NCBI GenBank assembly: GCA_903827955.1
Contig: CAIKKJ010000039.1
Span: 1-32,304, forward strand
Length of the DNA stretch: 32,304 nucleotides
Direction of reading: 5' to 3'
Source: an uncultured Verrucomicrobia subdivision 3 bacterium
GTDB lineage: Bacteria > Verrucomicrobiota > Verrucomicrobiia > Limisphaerales > UBA11358
The translations under genes were made by a program, and so were the position numbers. Under the pieces are notes generated by a model that was given only the letters and a program-made list of their open reading frames with translations, had not been told where the DNA came from and did no database searches. This document shows positions 2,038-31,886 of this stretch, one piece after another. Numbering within the stretch: the first letter of the stretch is position 1; each line of letters starts with the position of its first letter.

Positions 2038-2745
2038 ATGAACCCGAAAGCTGTTGTCTTAACTACTGCGCTTCTATTGTCAGCCACGTTCGTGGCGAGC
2101 GCCGTCACCTACATAGATGCCACCGGTGAAAACTTCACGACCGCTGGCGGCGGAATTCTCGACATCTCCTCGGTGGAAGTGAATAACACCGCGACGGATT
2201 TGAATTTTAAAATCAATCTAACCGGCAATCCGGTTGCGACCGATTGGGGTAAATACATGATTGGTATAAGCTCCACTAGCGGTGGCGACACGGCTGGCAA
2301 TGGTTGGGGCCGTCCGATTTCGCTGGCAGCGGGAATGAATTATTGGGTTGGCAGTTGGGTGGATAGTGGTAATGGCGCTGAACTCCGCAACTACACCGGC
2401 TCTTGGGGCCTCCAGTCGGCCACTTACGCAGCTAACCCCGACTCCATCAGTATCACCAAAGACGCTTCCTCTGTTACGCTCAATTTCAATTTTGCCGGAC
2501 TCGGTTTGAGCAGTGGCAGCACTTTTCTTTTCGATGTCTACACCTCCGGCGGTGGCGGCTCAGACGGTGCCGTGGATGCTTTGTCCAATCCGAGCCAGAG
2601 CATCGCCAACTGGGGCGATTCCTATAACACTGCATCTCCCTTCGTCAACTCCTACACCATTACCCCCGTGCCGGAACCGACCTCATTCGCGCTGCTCGGT
2701 CTAGGCGGCTTGCTATTGGCTCGCCGGGTGATTGACCGGAAGTAA
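2038..2745 (+). CDS. PEP-CTERM sorting-domain protein
   Basis: This is a 235-residue exported protein of unknown function. The N-terminus is a signal peptide, with a hydrophobic stretch in residues 5-20 and probable cleavage after FVASA. The body is Gly/Ser/Asn-rich, beta-type and almost Cys-free. The tail from about residue 210 is a textbook PEP-CTERM signal: a VPEPTSFALLG motif, a short hydrophobic helix and a terminal cluster with RR and RK. In known systems exosortase (EpsH/XrtA type) recognises this tail and processes the protein for export to the surface or matrix. No exosortase gene is in the window. The ATG has no clear Shine-Dalgarno; TATAAA lies just in front of it. A strong terminator follows, so the gene is probably monocistronic. 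The sorting class is certain, the molecular role unknown. Confidence 0.88.
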   Translation: MNPKAVVLTTALLLSATFVASAVTYIDATGENFTTAGGGILDISSVEVNNTATDLNFKINLTGNPVATDWGKYMIGISSTSGGDTAGNGWGRPISLAAGMNYWVGSWVDSGNGAELRNYTGSWGLQSATYAANPDSISITKDASSVTLNFNFAGLGLSSGSTFLFDVYTSGGGGSDGAVDALSNPSQSIANWGDSYNTASPFVNSYTITPVPEPTSFALLGLGGLLLARRVIDRK

Positions 2746-7834: not shown

Positions 7835-10800
7835 ATGAACACCGCAACCCCCACTCCTAGTCTCACCCGCCGCTGGAATTTCCGGCTGCAACGTTTTGGA
7901 ATTTTGCTCACAGCCTGCGCCTTGACCGGGCTCGCACATGCGCAGCCAGCTGCTTTTACTTGGAACGGTGGCGGTGCCGATGGCAACTGGACTACGGGCG
8001 GCAACTGGGGCGGCAGCGCGCCGGGCAGCCCGCAAGTGTTCCTGAATTTCAATGGCGCGGCGCGGACGACGAACACGAACAATTTCGCGGCTGGCAGCCC
8101 GGGCTATCAGATTTATTTCAAGAACGGCGCGAACGCGTTCAACCTCTTTGGCAATTCAATTTTCTTTTATGATTTCGGCGGCGGGGTGAATGATCCGAAC
8201 ATCCAGAATGAAGGGGCGAACACCAACCAGACCATCAACTTCCCCATCGCCAACGGCAACAATAACGGCACGTTCCACGTCTTGAATATTAATGTCAACA
8301 CCGGCACCAGTCAGGGGCCGCTGACGTTTAACGGCACGGTCAGTTCTGCTGATGCGGGCCAGGCGTTACGCGTGGTCAATGTGTATGGCCCGTCGGCCGT
8401 CGCTTTCAATGGCATCATTTCCGATTTTGACAGCACTCACAAACTGGCGCTATCCCAGCTGGGCAGCGGCACGATGACATTGCGCGCGACGAACACGTTC
8501 ACCAGTGATATGACGGTGAACGCGGGCACACTGGTGCTCGCCACGAACAGTGCGCTAGCCAACGGCGGAAATTTCATCCGCCTCGGCGACACGACGGCCA
8601 CGGGCATTGGTGCGAATTTGAATTTGAACGGAGGGAACAATCTTTCGACTCCCATCAACGTGCGCAACGGCAGTGCTGGGGGCAAAATAATTGCCAACAC
8701 CGCCGGCACCAGTGGCACGGCGCGGTTCTTAGGAAGTTTGTTTTTGGACGCCCCAGTCACGCTGTTTGCCAACTCTGGCGGCGGCAACGTGCTTTCCGGA
8801 AGTGTGCTGGATTTGAAGGCGCAGACGTTGACCTGCGACGGCACGGGAACAAACACCATCTCCGGCTCACTAACTAATTCCACCGGCAGTGGCGGGTTGA
8901 CCAAGAACGGGACCGGTTTTCTGGTCATTTCTGGAACCAACACCTATTCCGGTGCAACCGCCATAAACGCCGGCGAACTGATCGGCGTAACTGGCGGTTC
9001 CTCTTCCAACAGCACATTCACCGTGTCGTCGGGCGCGACGAACGGCGTGCAAGTGCAGACAGCCGGCGGAAGTTGGGCGTGCGGCGGGCTGACCTATAGC
9101 GCGGGCAGCACGTTCGCCGATTTTAACTTCAACGGTTTTGCGCCTAGCACTACCAGCGCGCCGCTTTTTGTGAACGGTAATCTGGCCTTCACAGTTGCGC
9201 CGAATGTTATCGTGCGTTCCGCCAACGCCACCATCGTGCCGGGCACATATCCGCTTATCAAATACACCGGCACACTTTCCGGCACGCCGCCGACCACGGC
9301 GCTGACATTGCCCGTCGGCGTCACCGCGACCATCGTCAACAACACCGGCAATAAATCCATCGACCTTAACGTGACCATCGGCAACGCCGTGCAATGGGCA
9401 CTTGGTAATACGAACTGGGATATCAACACTTCGACTGTCTGGAAAAATACCAGCGGTGCGGCGGTGAATTATCTGGACGGAGAAGCGGTGGTGTTTGATG
9501 ACACTGCCAGCGGTGCATCACCAATCACCGTTTCCTTGAGCACACTGGTCACGCCGGCGTCCATCACGGCAAACTTGACGAACAAGAATTATACCATTTC
9601 ATCCAACGCGGTAAACGCGGCCTTCGTTGGCAGCGGACCGCTGGTCAAAAATGGTTCCGGCACGCTGACTATCGTCACGACGAACACCGCCTATACCGGC
9701 AGCATCACACTGAACGGCGGCACGCTCGCCATGGGATCCGGCTCCAGCATCGGCAGCGGGCCGATGACGATGAACAACGGCACCACCTTGTCCCTGCCGA
9801 ACAGCGGCGCAAGCGCATTTCCCGGCAACCCGATTACCATCCCCGCCGGCGCGACGGCCACCTTCTCCACGACGGCACTGGGTAATGGCGTTGGCGGAAC
9901 CATCACCTCTGGCGACAGCACGAGCATCATCAACATCAGCGGCTCGGTCAGCTTCAGCACCTCCACCCGCCAGCTTGATCCCTTCACCGGCACCGTCTCC
10001 GTTCCATCCGGTGCCACCTTGCGTTTCTCCGCCACCAGCGGTGTCAACGGCAGCACCAACGCCTCGTTCGTGGTGAACGGAACCCTGCAGGATCGCAATG
10101 CCGGCCTCGGACCTTACATCCTTGGTTCCCTGTCCGGTTCGGGACAGATCGGGCCGAACCAAACCGCCAACGGCACCGGCACGGTGAGCTACCAGGTCGG
10201 CACCAACAACGCGAGCACCAGCTTCTCCGGGAAGTTTGTTGATTTCGGTATCAGTCCCAGCGTGACGAACACGGCCTTCACCAAGATGGGAACCGGCACG
10301 TTCACCATGAGCGGCAACTCGCTGCACTCGGGTGCCACGACCGTGGCCGTCGGCGCGCTCATCGGTGTCACCGGCGGCTCGTGCTCGAACAGCTCCGTCA
10401 CCGTCAACGCCGGCGCGACGAACGGCGTGTCCATCACGACCTCGGGCAGCCAGTGGGCTTGCACAAACCTGACCTACGCAGCGGCGGGAACGGAATACGC
10501 ATTGTTCGCGTTCAACGGCAACACGCCCAGCACCACCGTCGCGCCGTTGCAGGTGTTGAACAACCTCACCATCAACGGCACCTTGAATGTCATTGTCACC
10601 GGCGGCAGCTTCGTGATTCCGCCCGGCATTTATCCACTGATCGCCTATGCCGGCGCGTTGACCGGCACGCCGCCGGCGGTGCCGCTTTCCCTGCCGCCAT
10701 ACATCAGCGGTATCCTCACCAATGACACGGCGAATAAACTGATCTCCCTCATCGTCACCAACGTTGCGACCCCATCCGCGCTCGTCTGGACCGCCGGCAC

Positions 10801-13789
10801 CGGCACCTGGGATTTCTCCAGCCTGAACTGGACCAACGCCGCCGGCACAAGCGTCGCCTGGGCAGATACGAACGCGGCGGTGCTCAATGACACCGCCAGC
10901 GGCGCCGGGCCGTTCACTGTCACGCTCGGCGCCAACGTCGCTCCCGTCGGCGTCACCGTCAGCAACGCGACCAAAAATTACACCCTCGCCGGTTCCGCTG
11001 GCATCACCGGCAACAACACACTCACCAAGGCGGGCAATGGAATCCTGACCATCGCCAACAGCAACACCTTCGTCGGCCTCACGACCATCAGCGGCGGCAC
11101 GCTCCAACTCGGCAACGGCGGCACGACCGGCACGCTGGCAAACATGGCCATCGTGGACAACGGCGCACTCGTCATCAACCATTCGGACGCCGTCGCCATC
11201 AGTTCCGCCATCAGCGGCAACGGCTCCTTCACAAACGCCGGCGGCGGCACGACGACGCTTTCCGTAACGAACACCTACGCAGGCAACACCACGGTCAAAG
11301 CCGGCACGCTTCAGTTGACCGACTCCGGCAACCTGGCTCCCGCCTCCACCCTCGTCATGGCAGGCGGCCAGTTCACCCGCGCCGCGCAGAATTTCACACC
11401 GGCTCGGGCCAACGCCTACAAGTTCGGCCTGGCCGTGACTGCCGACTCCACCGTCGCCACCACTTCGACCACCACGCGCACAGTTCATTTTGATTCTGCC
11501 GCCGTGAGTGCCGTCCCAGGGACGACGTTATTAGTGACCAACGCCGCCGCGACCGGCACCAACCACTTCCGTTTCTACGCCGGCGGCTTCACCTACGCGG
11601 GCAATGTCGTCCTCGGCGGCAATGGCGCGAACAATATGACGTTCCTCGAGTCTTACAACACGAACGACACGCTGCCGGATCAGATTTTCAGTGGCGCTAT
11701 CAGCGGCTCTGGAAAAATTTACAAAAACATCGAAGGCTCCAACCCCGGCGGCAACCTCATCATCAGTAACGCCGCGAACACCTTCGCTGGCGGCACGGAA
11801 CTGCGCGCCGGCTTCATCGGCCTCGGCGCGGACAGCCCGCTCGGCACCAACCGCGTCACCTTCGGCTTTGATCTCAACCCGCTAGGACTCTACGCCGTCG
11901 GCGCGCCACGCACGCTAGCCAACGACATCCTCGCGGACGTGAACAGCAGTTCCGCCTCCACGGCCACCGGCTGCACCAACCTGCAAATCAAAGGTTCGCA
12001 GAACCTCACCCTGTCCGGCCGCATCCTGATTCACACGAACATCCAGTTCTTCACCATCAACAACTCTGCGCTCACGACTTTCTCTGGCGCGGTCACCAAC
12101 GCGGCAGCAAACTCACTGGGCATCGCCAAGCTCGGCAGCGGCACGCTGGTGCTCGCTGGCAACAATACTTACAGCGGCGACACGCGCGCCAACGTCGGTG
12201 TGCTTCGCCTCGGTGCCAGCAACGTCATCCCGGATGGATCCGGCAAAGGTGATGTCACGGTCGCCAGCACGCTCGACTTGAATACCTTCAGCGAAACCAT
12301 CAACGGCTTGAGCGGCGCAGGTATCATTGACACGATCGCCGGCGGCAGCCCGCTATTGACAGTTGGCAACAACAATGTTTCCAGCACCTTCAGCGGCGTC
12401 ATCCAAAACACCGCCGGTTCGCTGGCCTTGACCAAAACCGGCAGCGGCATCCTGACCTTGACCGGCGCGAATACTTTCACTGGCACGACGGTTATCGGCG
12501 CCGGCACACTCGTCTTGAGTGGTGCATCCGTGACGCTGGCCAGTGCAAACATAGCAGTTTCCGCCAGCGCATTGTTTGATGTTTCCGGTGTCACCGGCGG
12601 CTTCACGCTCAGCGCAGCGCAGACGCTCTCCGGCTTCGGCTCGGTCAACGGCACATTCACCAACAACGGCACCATCGCCCCCGGCGCATCCATTGGCACA
12701 CTCACCTTGAGCAACGCGCCGGTGATGAAAGGCACCGTGCTGATGGAACTCAACCGCACCAACGCGCAGAACGCCGACAAGCTGGTGCTGACATCCGGCA
12801 CGCTGACCTTCGGCGGTAGTTTGATCGTGACCAATGCCGGCCCCAGCCTCGTCGGCGGCGATACTTTTGTGCTGTTTGCCGCCGCTGCCTACGCCGGCAG
12901 CTACACCAACCTTACCCTTCCGCCGCTGAATGCCGGTTTGGTGTGGAACACCAATAATTTGGCCATCAATGGCAGTATCACAGTGGTCACCATTCTCCCG
13001 ACCGCGCTGGCGCTGACCAGCTCCGCCAATCCCTCCGGCTACCAGGATACACTCAACTTTACCGCCACAATCACCCCCACGAATGCCACCGGCACCGTGA
13101 CGTTCTACAACGGCGTAACTCCCTTCAGCACCAACGGTATCATCGCCGGCGTGGCGACCAGCGGTAGCCTCAGCACTCTGGCTCGCGGCAACAACAACAT
13201 CACCGCGACCTACCTCGGTGAAGTGTTCTACTACGGCAGCACCAACTCGTTGAACCAGATCGTCACCAACCATCCGCCCGTGGCCAGCAATGCCAGCGTC
13301 ACGCGCAACTCCGGCGTTCCGGCTCTACGTTTGTTAGTCAGCAACCTCCTCACCAACGCTGCCGATGTGGATGGCGACGTCCTCAGCTTAATCTCCGTCG
13401 GCAGCAGCACCAACGGCGCTTTCGTCAGCCTCTCCGGCGCTTACGTGCTTTACTACAACACGAACAACGTCAACGACACCTTCACCTACACCGTGCAGGA
13501 TAGTTTCGGCGACACCGGCACCAGCACCGTCAGCATCACCGTCAACGGCACGACCATCTTTGGTCAGAGCAATCCGCAGATCAACACCATCGGCGGCATT
13601 CCCACCGTCACCTTCTCCGGCATCCCCGGCTATAGCTACACGGTGCAACGCTCTACCAATCTCGTTGGCTGGGTTTCCTTGCTCACCACCAATGCGCCGG
13701 CTCTCGGTCTGTTTGATTACACGGACAACTTCAGCGACCTCGGCGGCATCCCCGGCTCCGCCTACTACCGGTTGCAATACAATCCTTAA
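7835..13789 (+). CDS. Giant exported autotransporter-associated beta-strand repeat protein
   Basis: This 1984-residue surface or secreted protein is dominated by Asn/Thr/Gly/Ser beta-strand repeats. The ATG at 7835 is preferred over the GTG at 7790 because it leads directly into a signal peptide, with an Arg-rich start, a hydrophobic core around residues 22-34 and cleavage near GLAHA. At least eight copies of the autotransporter-associated repeat are visible, of the form LTKxGxGxLxLxGxNTYxGxTxxxxGTL, near residues 203, 355, 602, 815, 1062, 1131, 1429 and 1531. Residues about 1725-1810 resemble a bacterial Ig-like domain, about 1815-1905 a cadherin-like domain (DVDGD, FTYTVQD), and the last 60 a C-terminal module ending YYRLQYNP. 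No C-terminal beta-barrel is visible, so it is not a classical type V autotransporter. A passive adhesive or structural stalk is the likely role; no enzymatic motif was seen. A good terminator follows. Confidence 0.85.
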   Translation: MNTATPTPSLTRRWNFRLQRFGILLTACALTGLAHAQPAAFTWNGGGADGNWTTGGNWGGSAPGSPQVFLNFNGAARTTNTNNFAAGSPGYQIYFKNGANAFNLFGNSIFFYDFGGGVNDPNIQNEGANTNQTINFPIANGNNNGTFHVLNINVNTGTSQGPLTFNGTVSSADAGQALRVVNVYGPSAVAFNGIISDFDSTHKLALSQLGSGTMTLRATNTFTSDMTVNAGTLVLATNSALANGGNFIRLGDTTATGIGANLNLNGGNNLSTPINVRNGSAGGKIIANTAGTSGTARFLGSLFLDAPVTLFANSGGGNVLSGSVLDLKAQTLTCDGTGTNTISGSLTNSTGSGGLTKNGTGFLVISGTNTYSGATAINAGELIGVTGGSSSNSTFTVSSGATNGVQVQTAGGSWACGGLTYSAGSTFADFNFNGFAPSTTSAPLFVNGNLAFTVAPNVIVRSANATIVPGTYPLIKYTGTLSGTPPTTALTLPVGVTATIVNNTGNKSIDLNVTIGNAVQWALGNTNWDINTSTVWKNTSGAAVNYLDGEAVVFDDTASGASPITVSLSTLVTPASITANLTNKNYTISSNAVNAAFVGSGPLVKNGSGTLTIVTTNTAYTGSITLNGGTLAMGSGSSIGSGPMTMNNGTTLSLPNSGASAFPGNPITIPAGATATFSTTALGNGVGGTITSGDSTSIINISGSVSFSTSTRQLDPFTGTVSVPSGATLRFSATSGVNGSTNASFVVNGTLQDRNAGLGPYILGSLSGSGQIGPNQTANGTGTVSYQVGTNNASTSFSGKFVDFGISPSVTNTAFTKMGTGTFTMSGNSLHSGATTVAVGALIGVTGGSCSNSSVTVNAGATNGVSITTSGSQWACTNLTYAAAGTEYALFAFNGNTPSTTVAPLQVLNNLTINGTLNVIVTGGSFVIPPGIYPLIAYAGALTGTPPAVPLSLPPYISGILTNDTANKLISLIVTNVATPSALVWTAGTGTWDFSSLNWTNAAGTSVAWADTNAAVLNDTASGAGPFTVTLGANVAPVGVTVSNATKNYTLAGSAGITGNNTLTKAGNGILTIANSNTFVGLTTISGGTLQLGNGGTTGTLANMAIVDNGALVINHSDAVAISSAISGNGSFTNAGGGTTTLSVTNTYAGNTTVKAGTLQLTDSGNLAPASTLVMAGGQFTRAAQNFTPARANAYKFGLAVTADSTVATTSTTTRTVHFDSAAVSAVPGTTLLVTNAAATGTNHFRFYAGGFTYAGNVVLGGNGANNMTFLESYNTNDTLPDQIFSGAISGSGKIYKNIEGSNPGGNLIISNAANTFAGGTELRAGFIGLGADSPLGTNRVTFGFDLNPLGLYAVGAPRTLANDILADVNSSSASTATGCTNLQIKGSQNLTLSGRILIHTNIQFFTINNSALTTFSGAVTNAAANSLGIAKLGSGTLVLAGNNTYSGDTRANVGVLRLGASNVIPDGSGKGDVTVASTLDLNTFSETINGLSGAGIIDTIAGGSPLLTVGNNNVSSTFSGVIQNTAGSLALTKTGSGILTLTGANTFTGTTVIGAGTLVLSGASVTLASANIAVSASALFDVSGVTGGFTLSAAQTLSGFGSVNGTFTNNGTIAPGASIGTLTLSNAPVMKGTVLMELNRTNAQNADKLVLTSGTLTFGGSLIVTNAGPSLVGGDTFVLFAAAAYAGSYTNLTLPPLNAGLVWNTNNLAINGSITVVTILPTALALTSSANPSGYQDTLNFTATITPTNATGTVTFYNGVTPFSTNGIIAGVATSGSLSTLARGNNNITATYLGEVFYYGSTNSLNQIVTNHPPVASNASVTRNSGVPALRLLVSNLLTNAADVDGDVLSLISVGSSTNGAFVSLSGAYVLYYNTNNVNDTFTYTVQDSFGDTGTSTVSITVNGTTIFGQSNPQINTIGGIPTVTFSGIPGYSYTVQRSTNLVGWVSLLTTNAPALGLFDYTDNFSDLGGIPGSAYYRLQYNP
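8981..9736 (+). repeat. Internal protein-level duplication, copy 1 (about 252 codons)
   Basis: The segment starts IGVTGGS and ends in a GTLAMG strand. It shares order, length and landmarks with the segment at 10361-11113: SNS, GATNGV, WAC..LTY, NGxxPSTT, G-Y-PLI-Y-G-L-GTPP, DTASGA, KNYT and a closing beta-strand repeat. The copies are clearly diverged at DNA level, so the duplication is old. Confidence 0.75.
10361..11113 (+). repeat. Internal protein-level duplication, copy 2 (251 codons)
   Basis: This is the partner of 8981-9736. It starts IGVTGGS and ends GTLQLG, with the same landmark order and nearly the same length (251 against 252 codons). The two copies are separated by about 208 codons holding other repeat units. 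Confidence 0.75.
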
Positions 13790-26062: not shown

Positions 26063-27574
26063 ATGAAGTTTTTTGACAGCTTATTTCTTGCGCTGGCGTT
26101 ATGCGGCGTGGCGGCAAGTGGGCGGGCGGAGTATCCCGTGCAACGTCCGGCACGCACCCATGCCGCGCCGGCGGAAAGTTCCTTCACTATTTACCCCGAA
26201 CAGCCGAAGCAAATCATCAAAGGCCTCGGTTTTGAAATCCAATCTGACTCCATCGCATCTGGGAATCTAGGCTTGCCGGAAGCCACAACCAGCGTGCCGC
26301 ATGATCTCCTGCCAGCAGAGCGGGAGCGTTTTTACCATGAGCTGCTCAAAGGCTTTCGTTACTGTCGGCTGGCGGGCGGGCTTTACTGGCGCGGTCTGGA
26401 CGCGGAGCAAAAGTTTTTGCAGCCGCGCTGGCCGGAACAACTGGTGGAGTTACGCGAGATGATTCAGTCGGCGGGTATCGAAGGCGTGTCACTTGAATAC
26501 TGGTCGCCCGCACCCTTCTGGAAAGCCAATCGCAAATACACGGGTGCAGACGGTTCGGAAAACATGTTGCGCTGCTTTGGTAGAAATTTTGCGGACGATC
26601 CCGAATACCACGGCGACACAAACCGTTTTCTTGCGGACTTCGCCATCGCGAACCGGCGAGATTTGGAAACCCTGCGCGCGAACGGAATTCCCATTTCGAT
26701 GTGGGGCTTAAAAAACGAGCCGACAGTGGATCAGAAATATTCCTCCTGCAAATTCACACCGGCGCAATATGCCAAAACTTTTCTCGCCGTCGCGCCGCAG
26801 GTTCGCGCGTTTGATCCGAAGATTAGAATCATCGCCGACACCGCGTTTGGCTGGGATTTCAAATTCATCCGTCCCGTGCTGAATGATTCCAAAACCTCAG
26901 GTTTAGTGGATGATCTGGTGATTCACCATGTGGGTTCAGATGCCAATGTCATCCTCGACATCCCCAAAGAAAAAACCGGCAAGCCACGATTTCAAAATGA
27001 GTTTGAATACCTTGCTGGCCCGGCGTCTCCCGCGCGCTGCCTCAATACCGTGCAGCACATCATGAACTGGTTTCAAGTGGGCGAAGCGCCGACGTGGTTT
27101 TGGATTCATGCGCTCAAGCCGGCTGCCAACGCCGAGGCAAGCGGCTACTCGCTCGGTTTATGGCGACCGGCCAACGACACCAACGTCGCCGATAATCCCC
27201 AATTTCCCGGCCTTAAGCCCGGCGGTTGGACGTGGAACAAATATAACTGGCACGCCGTCGGCAGTTTCGTGCGGCATCTGCCGTGGGATTCTCGCGCGGT
27301 TGAAGTGACAGAGGAAACGCGCGACCCGGACTTGCGCATCTTCGCGTTCAAGAAGCCTGACGGCAAACTGACCATCGTGCTTTCCAACCGCAGTTTTCAC
27401 GAACACACTTTTCACTTCGCCACCGGGTTGAGCGGCGCGACGTTCAAAGGTTTTCGCTACACACCGGACATGGCGGGAGAAAATTTCATGGGCGTTGAAA
27501 TCGGCACGTTGCGTGGCGACACCATTTCGCCCAAGCTTGGCGACCTGACGTGGGAATTTTGGGAGCAGCAATAA
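26063..27574 (+). CDS. Exported GH30-like glycoside hydrolase
   Basis: This is a 503-residue enzyme. The signal peptide is residues 1-22 (cleavage near SGRAEYP). The fold reads as GH30: an early QIIKGLGFEIQ strand, YWSPAPFWK, the acid/base motif WGLKNEPT (Glu219), a likely nucleophile in FQNEFEY (Glu313), then a beta-sandwich side domain with LTIVLSNRS and a late FRYTPD strand. GH30 enzymes are retaining hydrolases; members cut xylan, beta-1,6-glucan, beta-glucosides, beta-fucosides or beta-xylosides. Sequence alone does not fix the subfamily. The nucleophile sits in an unusual NEFE context, so assignment of that residue is inferred. It is divergent from the XylR-like gene and followed after 6 bases by the transporter, so it is co-transcribed and likely under that regulator. 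Confidence 0.8.
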   Translation: MKFFDSLFLALALCGVAASGRAEYPVQRPARTHAAPAESSFTIYPEQPKQIIKGLGFEIQSDSIASGNLGLPEATTSVPHDLLPAERERFYHELLKGFRYCRLAGGLYWRGLDAEQKFLQPRWPEQLVELREMIQSAGIEGVSLEYWSPAPFWKANRKYTGADGSENMLRCFGRNFADDPEYHGDTNRFLADFAIANRRDLETLRANGIPISMWGLKNEPTVDQKYSSCKFTPAQYAKTFLAVAPQVRAFDPKIRIIADTAFGWDFKFIRPVLNDSKTSGLVDDLVIHHVGSDANVILDIPKEKTGKPRFQNEFEYLAGPASPARCLNTVQHIMNWFQVGEAPTWFWIHALKPAANAEASGYSLGLWRPANDTNVADNPQFPGLKPGGWTWNKYNWHAVGSFVRHLPWDSRAVEVTEETRDPDLRIFAFKKPDGKLTIVLSNRSFHEHTFHFATGLSGATFKGFRYTPDMAGENFMGVEIGTLRGDTISPKLGDLTWEFWEQQ

Positions 27575-27580
27575 TTTATC

Positions 27581-28054
27581 GTGACACTGAAAGTTCCATA
27601 CCTGCGCTGGTTCGTCGCGTTCGCCCTCTTCATGGCGGCGCTGCTGAACTACGTTGATCGCAACGTCCTCGGCCTGCTTGCCACGACGATTCAGAAAGAC
27701 CTGAACATCTCGAATCAGGAATACGCCAGCATCATCAATTTTTTTCTGATCGCGTATACGATTGCGAATCTACTTTCAGGCCGCGTGGTGGACAAACTGG
27801 GTGTGCGCTGGAGCCTCGCGCTGTTCGTTGCGTGGTGGACGGTGGCCAACGCCCTGACTGGCATGGCGCGGTCGCTCGGACAAATTTGTGGACTGCGCTT
27901 CATGCTCGGACTCGGCGAAGCCGGTTGCTACGGTCACTTCGTCGCCGGGCATCAAACTGGTCTCAATTTGGATGATATCCTCGTTTTCAAAGCAATCCTG
28001 CAGTTCCGCTATTATCTCATCGGCAACTGGCGGTATTACTCCGCCAAAATTTAA
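27581..28054 (+). pseudogene. Truncated ExuT-like hexuronate transporter (MFS), N-terminal part only
   Basis: The GTG at 27581 is the only usable start, because a stop lies just upstream in frame (the GH30 stop, 27572-27574). Residues 1-115 are typical of the anion:cation symporter MFS group that imports glucuronate and galacturonate: NYVDRNVLGLL in helix 1, GRVVDKLGVRWSLAL at the helix 2-3 loop, and LRFMLGLGEAG in helix 4. After about base 27925 the frame reads antisense to an RfaH/NusG-like gene and gives 42 unrelated residues. A full member has about 430 residues and 12 helices; only about four helices remain, so it cannot work as written. In an intact locus it would import the uronates released by the pectinases. 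Either a real truncation or a chimeric assembly. Confidence 0.8.
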
Positions 28055-28318
28055 CATCCGATTGACGCCGGACGTGTGTTGAATCTCATTGAGCCGATCT
28101 TCCAGAACGCAACGAACGAAAATATAGCATGGAAACAATGGTTCTGTGACCGAAACCAAACCGCGCCGGGTCAGTTTTTCCAAACGGAGGCGAGGTGAAA
28201 AAACTTCCAGCCCAAGGTTTTTACGCAGGTTGGCTGCGGCAATGTGCTCGTGCTTGGGCTTTGTCCGGGCACCGAACCAAGCTGGGTGGGGGGTAAACAT
28301 TTGTGGGGATGGCCGCAT
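27776..28318 (-). pseudogene. RfaH/NusG-like antiterminator, KOW domain lost at the junction
   Basis: ATG at 28318, or ATG at 28300 (six codons later). Residues about 10-120 look like a NusG N-terminal (NGN) domain of the RfaH/UpxY class: AWFGARTKPKHEHIAA, GLEVFSPRLR, LFPCYIFVR, and a VNRMLNFGG strand. The linker LMPGDEVTVATG begins the KOW domain at about residue 124, then homology stops near base 27920 and the frame runs antisense through the transporter to 27776. Specialised NusG paralogues bind RNA polymerase and let it read through long surface-polysaccharide or secondary-metabolite operons, and they usually sit at the operon's start. Here it reads leftward, so the operon it served is missing or lies across the breakpoint. 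A possible leftward TATAAT is at 28438-28443, 120 bases upstream. Confidence 0.75.
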
Positions 28319-28652: not shown

Positions 28653-28850
28653 TTAGCAGGCGGACGGCAAATTAGTTTGTTTGTCGGCCGTTTTCACACC
28701 GTAGTGGAAACCGGTTTCATCTTGATAACCCACTGGAATTTCGATTTTTACCATATTGCGCAGCTTGGCCATGAGACCAGCGGCGGAAAAGCCGATGTTG
28801 CCGGTGTGTGACAAGGTCTTTTGAGTCAGGATGGATTGTTTGTATGTCAT
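28653..28850 (-). CDS. Small hypothetical protein (65 residues)
   Basis: It has an ATG start at 28850 and no signal peptide. The N-terminal half is Ser/Thr/Lys-rich; the middle reads AKLRNMVKIEIPVGYQDETGFHYG, which has the charge and residue balance of a real protein rather than a shadow frame. I recognise no family. It is the only credible frame between the antiterminator fragment and the secreted fn3 protein. Upstream lie TATAAA, a few bases before the ATG, and a perfect GCATCG-G-CGATGC dyad at 28863-28875. It could be co-transcribed with the secreted protein upstream, 45 bases away. Confidence 0.45.
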   Translation of the reverse strand: MTYKQSILTQKTLSHTGNIGFSAAGLMAKLRNMVKIEIPVGYQDETGFHYGVKTADKQTNLPSAC

Positions 28851-28895: not shown

Positions 28896-30476
28896 TTACG
28901 GCAAATAATACGAGCGGTAAAACCGTTGGCCGAAACTGGCGGCATTTGTCTCGGTGTAGGTGAACGGGGCCGTGTTGGTCTGCACTGCCGACCAGTGTTT
29001 CAGGTCTTCCGTAGCCAAGACCACATACTTGGCCCCCGTCAGACCGGACACTTGAAAGCTGAACTGGCCGTTGATGCGAATCGGTGTCGAAATCATTGGA
29101 ACCGTGTTCGTTATCGAACCCAGTGCCGTTTTCACCGCCAACTGGGTGTTGGTTTGCGCCACCACGCTATTCGTCGGCATCAACACGCATAATTCCGCTA
29201 CCGAACTATTCGTGAAACCGTAACTGTTCGAGACATAAACCGAATAAAGCCCCGCCTGATTGGTGTTTGCTTTTTTAAAGGTCAATATCGAACCGGTCGC
29301 ACCCGGCAGGTTCGTCCCGTTGCACATCCACTGATACCGAAAGGGAGCACGCCCTGACATCGCCACGCTGAAGGAGGCTGACTTACCGGCCAGAACATTT
29401 GTCCCGCTCGGTTGTTTGGTAATTTTCGGCAAGGCCGCCAGCCGGACGGTGTTGATCACGGTCACCGTAAAAGTTTGTGTGACAATGTTATTGCTCGCAC
29501 CGCCATCATCTACCGTCACCGTGATCGTCACCACGCCGGACGCATTAGCCACGGGTTTAAACTTCAAAGTGGCGACGCTGGCTAGATTAGTATAGGCGAC
29601 CTTCTGAATCGAGATCACATTGTTATTGCTGGATTTTGCGGTGATTTTAATCAACTTGTTCGTATTGGGAAAACCCGCCCCGATGCCCGTCAGCAGCACG
29701 GTTTGCAACGCTGAATTCATATTGATCGACAGGTCGTGAATGGCGTCCAAGGTCGGTAACTGCTTCTGTGCCACGGGCAAAAAGTAATTAACTTCCGTCG
29801 ATATCGGGCTTTCGTTCCAAGCCGAATCATATTCGCGCACTGCAAAATAATTCGTCGTCCCTGCAACCAGTCCCGTCACGACTAAACTGTTTACCAACCC
29901 CAAATTCGTCACATTAAGATAATTTCCGCTCGCCGTGCCATAAAACACCTGATAGCCGGTCACGCCCGCATCGCTGCTCACATCCCACGTCATAATCAGG
30001 CTCGTCGCATCCGCCGGATTTGTTGTTACCAAAAGGTTTGCCACCGCGTTCAATACTGGTGGCAGGTTCGGCGGCGTGGAGTTCGTCGGCACTGGATCAA
30101 TAACGATGTTTGTAATGCTATTCGTGTCACTGATTTTCACCGATGGCACCACAAAAACCACCTCATCCGAATGGATACTTTCATTTGTAGAAGCATCGTA
30201 AGTCGTGGCGGAAAAATAATTGGTCGAGCCGTCAGCCAAGTCGGGAATCATCACATTCGTCGCGTTTCCAGCATCAATGACGCTCGTATAAGCCTGGCTA
30301 GCCGTGCCGCAATAAACCTTGTAACCCACTACACCTGCCACCGTGCTTGGATTCCAGGTCAACGCCACGTTCTGAACGCCCCACGCCGGCAGTTGCACCA
30401 GCAACCCCAGCAGGGCGGGCAACCATGAACCACGGATACTTTTAACCGTCCAAAATCTGTTGGCAACGCACGACAT
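28896..30476 (-). CDS. Secreted fibronectin-III/Ig-like domain protein
   Basis: This is a 526-residue exported protein with no catalytic motif that I can see. The signal peptide covers residues about 1-33 (hydrophobic LPALLGLLVQL). Two related fn3 domains follow (about 35-110 and 140-232); each carries a GYKVYCGTAS or GYQVFYGTAS strand and an N-ES motif near its end. Then come a cadherin/Ig-like region (about 240-350, VTITVTVDDGGASN), an Ig-like domain (about 355-440, PFRYQWMCNG and AGLYSVYVSNSYG), and the C-terminal module ending RFYRSYYLP at the stop. A surface or matrix adhesion or scaffold role is plausible. The C-terminal module matches those of the pectinases and amylase elsewhere in the window, so they probably share one export or attachment route. 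Confidence 0.8.
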   Translation of the reverse strand: MSCVANRFWTVKSIRGSWLPALLGLLVQLPAWGVQNVALTWNPSTVAGVVGYKVYCGTASQAYTSVIDAGNATNVMIPDLADGSTNYFSATTYDASTNESIHSDEVVFVVPSVKISDTNSITNIVIDPVPTNSTPPNLPPVLNAVANLLVTTNPADATSLIMTWDVSSDAGVTGYQVFYGTASGNYLNVTNLGLVNSLVVTGLVAGTTNYFAVREYDSAWNESPISTEVNYFLPVAQKQLPTLDAIHDLSINMNSALQTVLLTGIGAGFPNTNKLIKITAKSSNNNVISIQKVAYTNLASVATLKFKPVANASGVVTITVTVDDGGASNNIVTQTFTVTVINTVRLAALPKITKQPSGTNVLAGKSASFSVAMSGRAPFRYQWMCNGTNLPGATGSILTFKKANTNQAGLYSVYVSNSYGFTNSSVAELCVLMPTNSVVAQTNTQLAVKTALGSITNTVPMISTPIRINGQFSFQVSGLTGAKYVVLATEDLKHWSAVQTNTAPFTYTETNAASFGQRFYRSYYLP

Positions 30477-30773: not shown

Positions 30774-31886
30774 CTATTTTTTGAAAAAAGACTTTACCAC
30801 TTCGACCACCCGCTGGATCTGCTCCTCCGTCAGTTCCGGATAGATTGGCAGGCTCAAGCACTGGTTCGCCGACTTTTCCGCGTTCGGGAAAGACCCCTGC
30901 TTATAGCCGAGTTCCGCGTAGCACTTTTGCAAATGCAGCGGCAGCGGATAATGCAGCGCGCAACCCACGCCGTTCGCCTCCAGATGCTTCTTCAATTCCT
31001 CGCGCTGCGGATGGCGCACCACGTAGAGATGCCACACGCTTTCCGCGTAGCTCGGTTCCGACGGTAATTGCAGCGGTGTGTCCTTCAGCAATTCCGCGTA
31101 ACGCTTCGCCACGCGCTGACGTTCGCTCGTCCACTTCGCCAGATGCTTCAATTTGATACCCAGCACCGCGCCTTGGATGCCTTCCATGCGATAATTGAAT
31201 CCCACCTCGTCGTGGTAATAACGCACCGTCGAACCGTGTTCGCGCAATGACCGCGCGCGTTTTGCAAACTCTGCGTTGTTCGTCACCAGCGCCCCGCCCT
31301 CGCCGAACGCACCCAGGTTTTTGCCCGGATAAAAACTGAAGCACGACACTTCGCCCAGTCCGCCCACCGTCTTGCCCTTGTATTTTGCGCCATGCGACTG
31401 GCAGGCATCTTCCATCAACGGGATTCCGTATTTTTTGCCAATATCGCGGATCGCATCCACATCAAACGGCAGTCCGTAGAGATGAACCGGCAAAATCGCC
31501 TTTGTTTTCGGTGTGATGGCGCGTTCGATCAACTTTGGGTCAAGGTTCATCGTCACGTCGTCCACGTCCACATAAACCGGCTTCGCACCGATATACGAAA
31601 TCGCCCAACTCGTCGCCACAAACGTGTAAGGCGTCGTGATGACCTCATCGCCGGCCTTCACGCCGAGCAACATCAGGCCGACATGCTCCGCCGACGTGCC
31701 GCTGTTGAACGCCACGCAATGTTCCGCGCCGCAATACTTCGCAAAATCTTTTTCGAACTGCGCCACATCCGGCCCGAGACAGAATGAGCAGTTGTCAATC
31801 GTCTTGGAAATGGCCGCATCAATCTCCGCGCGGAGCGGTTTGATTTGCGCTTTGAGGTCGAGGTAGGGAACCGGTTGATGTGACAT
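30774..31886 (-). CDS. DegT/DnrJ/EryC1/StrS-family sugar aminotransferase
   Basis: This is a 370-residue, PLP-dependent aminotransferase of normal family length. Visible motifs are an N-terminal PYLDLKAQ, the phosphate-binding NSGTSAEH (about 61-68), PYTFVATSW, EDACQSHG with Asp160 contacting the pyridine ring, and the Schiff-base Lys189 in SFYPGKNLGAFGEGG. Late motifs are NYRMEGIQGAVL and LSLPIYPELTEEQI. The family aminates keto-sugar nucleotides on the way to amino sugars of O-antigens, capsules, exopolysaccharides or glycosylated products. The N-terminal DLKAQ and C-terminal layout are close to WbpE-type enzymes, but I would not fix the substrate. Cytosolic. Its own terminator follows, and the LemA gene lies upstream on the same strand. 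With the antiterminator fragment it hints at a polysaccharide locus. Confidence 0.92.
   Translation of the reverse strand: MSHQPVPYLDLKAQIKPLRAEIDAAISKTIDNCSFCLGPDVAQFEKDFAKYCGAEHCVAFNSGTSAEHVGLMLLGVKAGDEVITTPYTFVATSWAISYIGAKPVYVDVDDVTMNLDPKLIERAITPKTKAILPVHLYGLPFDVDAIRDIGKKYGIPLMEDACQSHGAKYKGKTVGGLGEVSCFSFYPGKNLGAFGEGGALVTNNAEFAKRARSLREHGSTVRYYHDEVGFNYRMEGIQGAVLGIKLKHLAKWTSERQRVAKRYAELLKDTPLQLPSEPSYAESVWHLYVVRHPQREELKKHLEANGVGCALHYPLPLHLQKCYAELGYKQGSFPNAEKSANQCLSLPIYPELTEEQIQRVVEVVKSFFKK

Follow-up and report, generated by a model that had tools for sequence, protein, structure and literature searches.

Two unrelated genes truncated tail to tail at one point in a contig of an uncultured Verrucomicrobia subdivision 3 bacterium

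The locus raises the question of how a transporter gene and a NusG-type gene came to lose their 3' parts at the same point, and whether a natural event or a false join in assembly is responsible. The window, meaning the whole stretch of DNA analysed, is contig C39 at its full length of 32,304 bases, from a short-read metagenome-assembled genome (MAG) of 3.86 Mb in 213 contigs that is rated 95% complete and 3.4% contaminated. Lake MAGs of Verrucomicrobia subdivision 3 are among the named relatives of the transporter. The left 27.9 kb includes a pectinesterase, two GH28 genes, a pectate lyase, a XylR-like regulator, a GH30-like gene and the transporter. The right 4.4 kb carries a NusG-family gene, a conserved 65-aa protein, an fn3/Ig protein, a DegT aminotransferase and a LemA fragment.

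Two truncated genes

A sequence-only reading had described a breakpoint or chimera at which two genes are truncated. Both truncations are indeed present, meeting tail to tail at one point, and column counts against relatives place the change from one gene to the other within a few bases. The features around the junction are as follows.

26063..27574, + strand: GH30-like glycoside hydrolase, intact (Pfam Glyco_hydro_30C just under cut-off; by synteny the upstream partner of the transporter also in G070 and G033)
27581..27931, + strand: 5' fragment of an MFS (ExuT-like) transporter, 117 codons (MFS_1 profile positions 1-102 of 347; homology stops at 27931)
27932..28054, + strand: hybrid tail of the transporter open reading frame (ORF), a chance extension antisense to the NusG-type gene (ORF list; tail in no relative)
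27921..27931, no strand: junction zone compatible with both parents, true shared stretch 2-11 bp (column counts)
27921..28318, - strand: 5' fragment of a NusG/RfaH-type gene, NGN domain kept and KOW domain lost (Pfam NusG; RfaH profile positions 1-121 of 159, against 1-157 in the intact G067 copy)
27776..27920, - strand: hybrid tail of the NusG-type ORF, a chance extension antisense to the transporter (ORF list)
28653..28850, - strand: conserved 65-aa protein of no known family, operon head (53-76% aa identity in seven relatives' loci)
28896..30476, - strand: fn3/Ig protein, operon head (domain match and relatives' synteny)
30774..31886, - strand: DegT-type aminotransferase, operon head (domain match and relatives' synteny)

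Transporter residues 1-117 share 92% aa identity with G070 and G021 and 87% with G033, and the DNA match ends at window position 27931 (query 351) in all three alike. The intact transporter in relatives has about 421 aa, and the intact G070 copy covers MFS_1 positions 1-345; the fragment thus lacks a full-length MFS domain of twelve helices. The ORF continues for 40 codons beyond the break. The best NCBIfam model, TIGR00893 (D-galactonate transporter), stays under its cut-off even with the intact copy, and the name ExuT-like is a guess from context, the surrounding pectin genes hinting at uronates. With so little of the MFS profile covered, the remnant is not likely to work.

The NusG-type gene is 80% identical in amino acids to its G067 counterpart and 63-70% to five other relatives. 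Homology is lost between 27932 and 27921, where the KOW region begins, and the ORF runs about 48 codons past the break to 27776. The N-terminal NGN domain is retained (Pfam NusG 50 bits versus a cut-off of 22), while the C-terminal KOW domain, into which relatives continue, is missing. The fragment scores 65 bits against the RfaH equivalog TIGR01955 (cut-off 144.5 bits). Since the intact G067 copy reaches only 95 bits, we class the gene not as RfaH proper but as a NusG paralogue of the RfaH/UpxY kind. Having neither the KOW domain nor its operon, the remnant is not likely to be functional.

Truncation had been expected to show as intact exuT and rfaH-like genes in relatives, and both were found whole there, the NusG-type gene at 190-201 aa and running through the KOW region. 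The converse, that homologues naturally end here, does not hold, as close relatives are full length. Relatives carry the two genes in different operons, and the C-termini seen here are therefore not natural. No relative carries the hybrid tail of either ORF, and junction-spanning 15-mers are absent from all loci compared. Among the assembled contigs searched, from which near-identical records may be left out, there was no second, independent assembly of the species.

Fine structure of the junction

The switch between transporter and NusG-type sequence is confined to 27921-27932. Agreement with the transporter is found in 4-5 of 5 relatives at 27929-27931 and in 0 of 5 at 27932-27935, and 6-8 of 8 relatives agree with the NusG-type gene at most of the positions 27933-27945. 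The zone fitting both parents is 27921-27931 (CCGGTTGCTAC), an overlap of at most 11 bp as judged against relatives rather than the junction's own parental sequences. Inside it the NusG-type column agrees in 1 of 8 relatives at 27926 and in 0 of 8 at 27929, which suggests that the true overlap is perhaps nearer 2 bp than 11.

The sequence-only reading was correct in placing a break at a single point, although its placement at 27920-27925 gives way to the interval above. It had also offered GGCGAAGCCGG (27914-27924) as the microhomology. Agreement with the NusG-type gene there is 0/8 at 27915, 27916, 27918, 27919 and 27920 and 2/8 at 27917. We reject that stretch in the form proposed, since 6 of its first 7 bases fit none or a minority of the NusG relatives; CCGG alone falls in the zone fitting both parents, and the proposed microhomology is off by about 7 bases. 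A search for a mobile element, a tRNA or a long repeat at the junction found none. A 17-nt imperfect inverted repeat (88%) with arms at 27823-27839 and 28101-28117 flanks the junction, probably by chance.

Gene order in relatives and the missing parts

In G070 and G033 the GH30 gene and the transporter are followed by a 772-aa protein resembling FAD oxidoreductases. The right-hand side finds its counterpart in G004, G021 and G028, where DegT, the fn3/Ig protein, the 65-aa protein and the NusG-type gene precede polysaccharide genes starting with a sugar transferase; the same run occurs in G067 without DegT and in G027 without fn3/Ig. After the NusG-type regulator the relatives' operon goes on through a sugar transferase, a Gfo/Idh oxidoreductase, an acyltransferase, FemAB and Wzc to an exosortase, which in G067 lies about 36 kb downstream, past Wzc and glycosyltransferases (the polysaccharide gene names rest partly on our reading of the sequences, the exosortase on a Pfam match). 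These gene orders indicate that the ancestral neighbours remain on the 5' side of each fragment and are gone from its 3' side. As in the NusG-headed polysaccharide/exosortase operons of the genus (G067, G021, G028, G004 and G027), the 65-aa protein here precedes the NusG-type gene in the same order and on the same strand, mostly with fn3/Ig and DegT also ahead. Unlike them, the operon here breaks off within the NusG-type gene, with everything after it missing, the exosortase included. Literature on exosortase and NusG in Verrucomicrobia yielded nothing specific. The 65-aa protein gave no match in Pfam or NCBIfam and lies beside the NusG-type gene in seven relatives' loci, as a small unnamed member of the polysaccharide/exosortase locus.

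The missing parts are absent from the rest of the assembly. For the transporter 3' part, expected at about 88-92% identity, the best match in the genome reaches 33%, and the NusG C-terminus returns nothing but the fragment itself and weak matches. The next operon genes after the NusG-type gene find matches of at most 46%, and the FAD oxidoreductase that adjoins the transporter in relatives finds one of 34%. Wzc, the locus exosortase, TPR and PrsR-like proteins are present at 50-86% in G004, G021, G027 and G028 and have no orthologues in this genome. The parts that a deletion would have removed are thus absent, within 95% completeness. However, G007 likewise has the NusG head without the remainder of the locus, on a short contig that ends 289 bases beyond the gene; absence from a bin is therefore no proof of deletion, and missing contigs are a real alternative. 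Another exosortase remains in the genome at G000:C148:13803-14540. Although the locus exosortase is missing, the gene at 2038-2745 (+) of the window encodes a secreted protein whose tail (VPEPTSFALLGLGGLLLARR) is PEP-CTERM-like.

Two further loci bear on the surroundings of these genes. A Lake Pavin MAG (L119:182-3181, JAPLTE010000140.1) has an intact transporter with a convergent exosortase gene 34 bases later. That exosortase is of another type, with XrtD as its best match (under cut-off); the next genes encode a TPR protein and one that is PEP-CTERM-like. In a bin assigned to Geobacteraceae, a small contig (L120:901-1158, CAIUUR010000344.1) carries a closely related transporter (92% aa, 86% DNA) that breaks off at residue 79, after which come ThiF-like and other unrelated genes. 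Either this gene family is broken abruptly a second time there, or the contig is misbinned or chimeric.

Origin of the junction

The right block falls in the lowest 2% of the genome's own fragments for GC and tetranucleotide correlation, and a left-side stretch (8601-12900) is as unusual. The AT-richer right flank noted from the sequence is partly a trait of the locus, and the GC drop alone is weak evidence, because in five relatives, too, the GC content of the block is 2-4 points lower than around it. A foreign origin of the right block is unsupported, since it recurs in genus-mates at ordinary divergence, though it is a composition outlier. Both sides of the junction diverge within the range of the species' core genes (61-97%). 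Neither fragment shows relaxed selection, with dN to the nearest relative at 0.044 for exuT and 0.093 for nusG, the lowest of their sets. Both fragments still look under normal purifying selection, and the event was accordingly either very recent or an assembly chimera.

With slightly better than even confidence, we read the junction as present in living cells and as what remains of a single recent deletion, in a freshwater Verrucomicrobia-type bacterium, that joined two loci oriented convergently. In the ancestor, a pectin-utilisation module (GH30, transporter, FAD oxidoreductase) would have been convergent with a polysaccharide/exosortase operon. The deletion would have removed the 3' parts of both genes plus everything between, with joining at a short shared stretch of 2-11 bp within 27921-27931. 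One event would account for every absence and for the tail-to-tail geometry. The deletion-inversion proposed earlier is unnecessary, as one plain deletion makes two convergent genes lose their 3' parts. Retention of ancestral 5' neighbours, divergence fitting core genes on both sides and the convergent exuT/exosortase pair in L119 also argue for a deletion. Against it stand the undecayed fragments, which require a very recent event, and the composition of the right block; the predicted convergent ancestor occurs in full in no close relative. Scars of short-homology (illegitimate) deletion similarly switch between unrelated sequences within a few bases, with 2-11 bp fitting both and the intervening DNA absent, but here the undeleted ancestor is unseen and the putative scar is that of an assembled contig.

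An assembly or library chimera is a serious contender, though held at somewhat less than even chance. Two places in the species, or two co-occurring members of the genus, would have been falsely joined inside both genes, with the true continuations left unbinned. The short-read origin, a contig seen once, the undecayed fragments and the outlying composition would all fit, as would the locus without its remainder in G007 and the abruptly cut transporter in L120. However, the overlap, at most 11 bp as judged against relatives, would be shorter than usual assembler k-mers, and a bin that is 95% complete would have to lack both remaining parts together with their neighbours. MEGAHIT assembly and MetaBAT binning produced the genomes of the named relatives (PMC8121793). 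Amplification chimeras share the abrupt switch and the few shared bases; in multiple displacement amplification (MDA), 2-21 complementary bases occur at more than 70% of chimeric junctions, and the chimeras are typically inverted and within 10 kb (PMC1855051). By contrast, the lost parts here are absent altogether, and there is no sign of amplification for this genome.

It is very improbable that a real junction arose by inversion, translocation or insertion of a segment with the operon head, the rest being lost later. That would take more steps than one deletion, and the junction has no mobile element, tRNA or long repeat. In its favour, LemA lies beside DegT here and not in the relatives' loci examined. 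The right block's four genes also occur in another order and orientation in G007 (L057, G007:C43), with NusG and the 65-aa protein on the - strand and DegT and fn3/Ig on the + strand, which points to a block prone to rearrangement or misassembly; the arrangement there is rearranged or misassembled too. A view of the hybrid proteins as naturally short but functional draws on both frames being open past the junction and on the lack of decay. It is extremely improbable and was rejected, as all close relatives are full length, none has these tails, and the operon that such a regulator would serve is missing. Scarcely more credible is the reading that a pectin-degrading lineage recently lost the whole polysaccharide/exosortase locus in a real and favoured event, and that the KOW-less NusG paralogue left behind might still bind RNA polymerase.

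The finding is biologically ordinary and of little biological reach. It does call for caution in annotation. Neither the transporter nor the regulator should be annotated as a working gene here, and the closeness of pectin genes to polysaccharide genes on this contig is no ground for seeing a single functional cluster. Should reads confirm the junction, it would mean that an exosortase locus kept by most NusG-bearing members of the genus examined was lost here naturally and recently.
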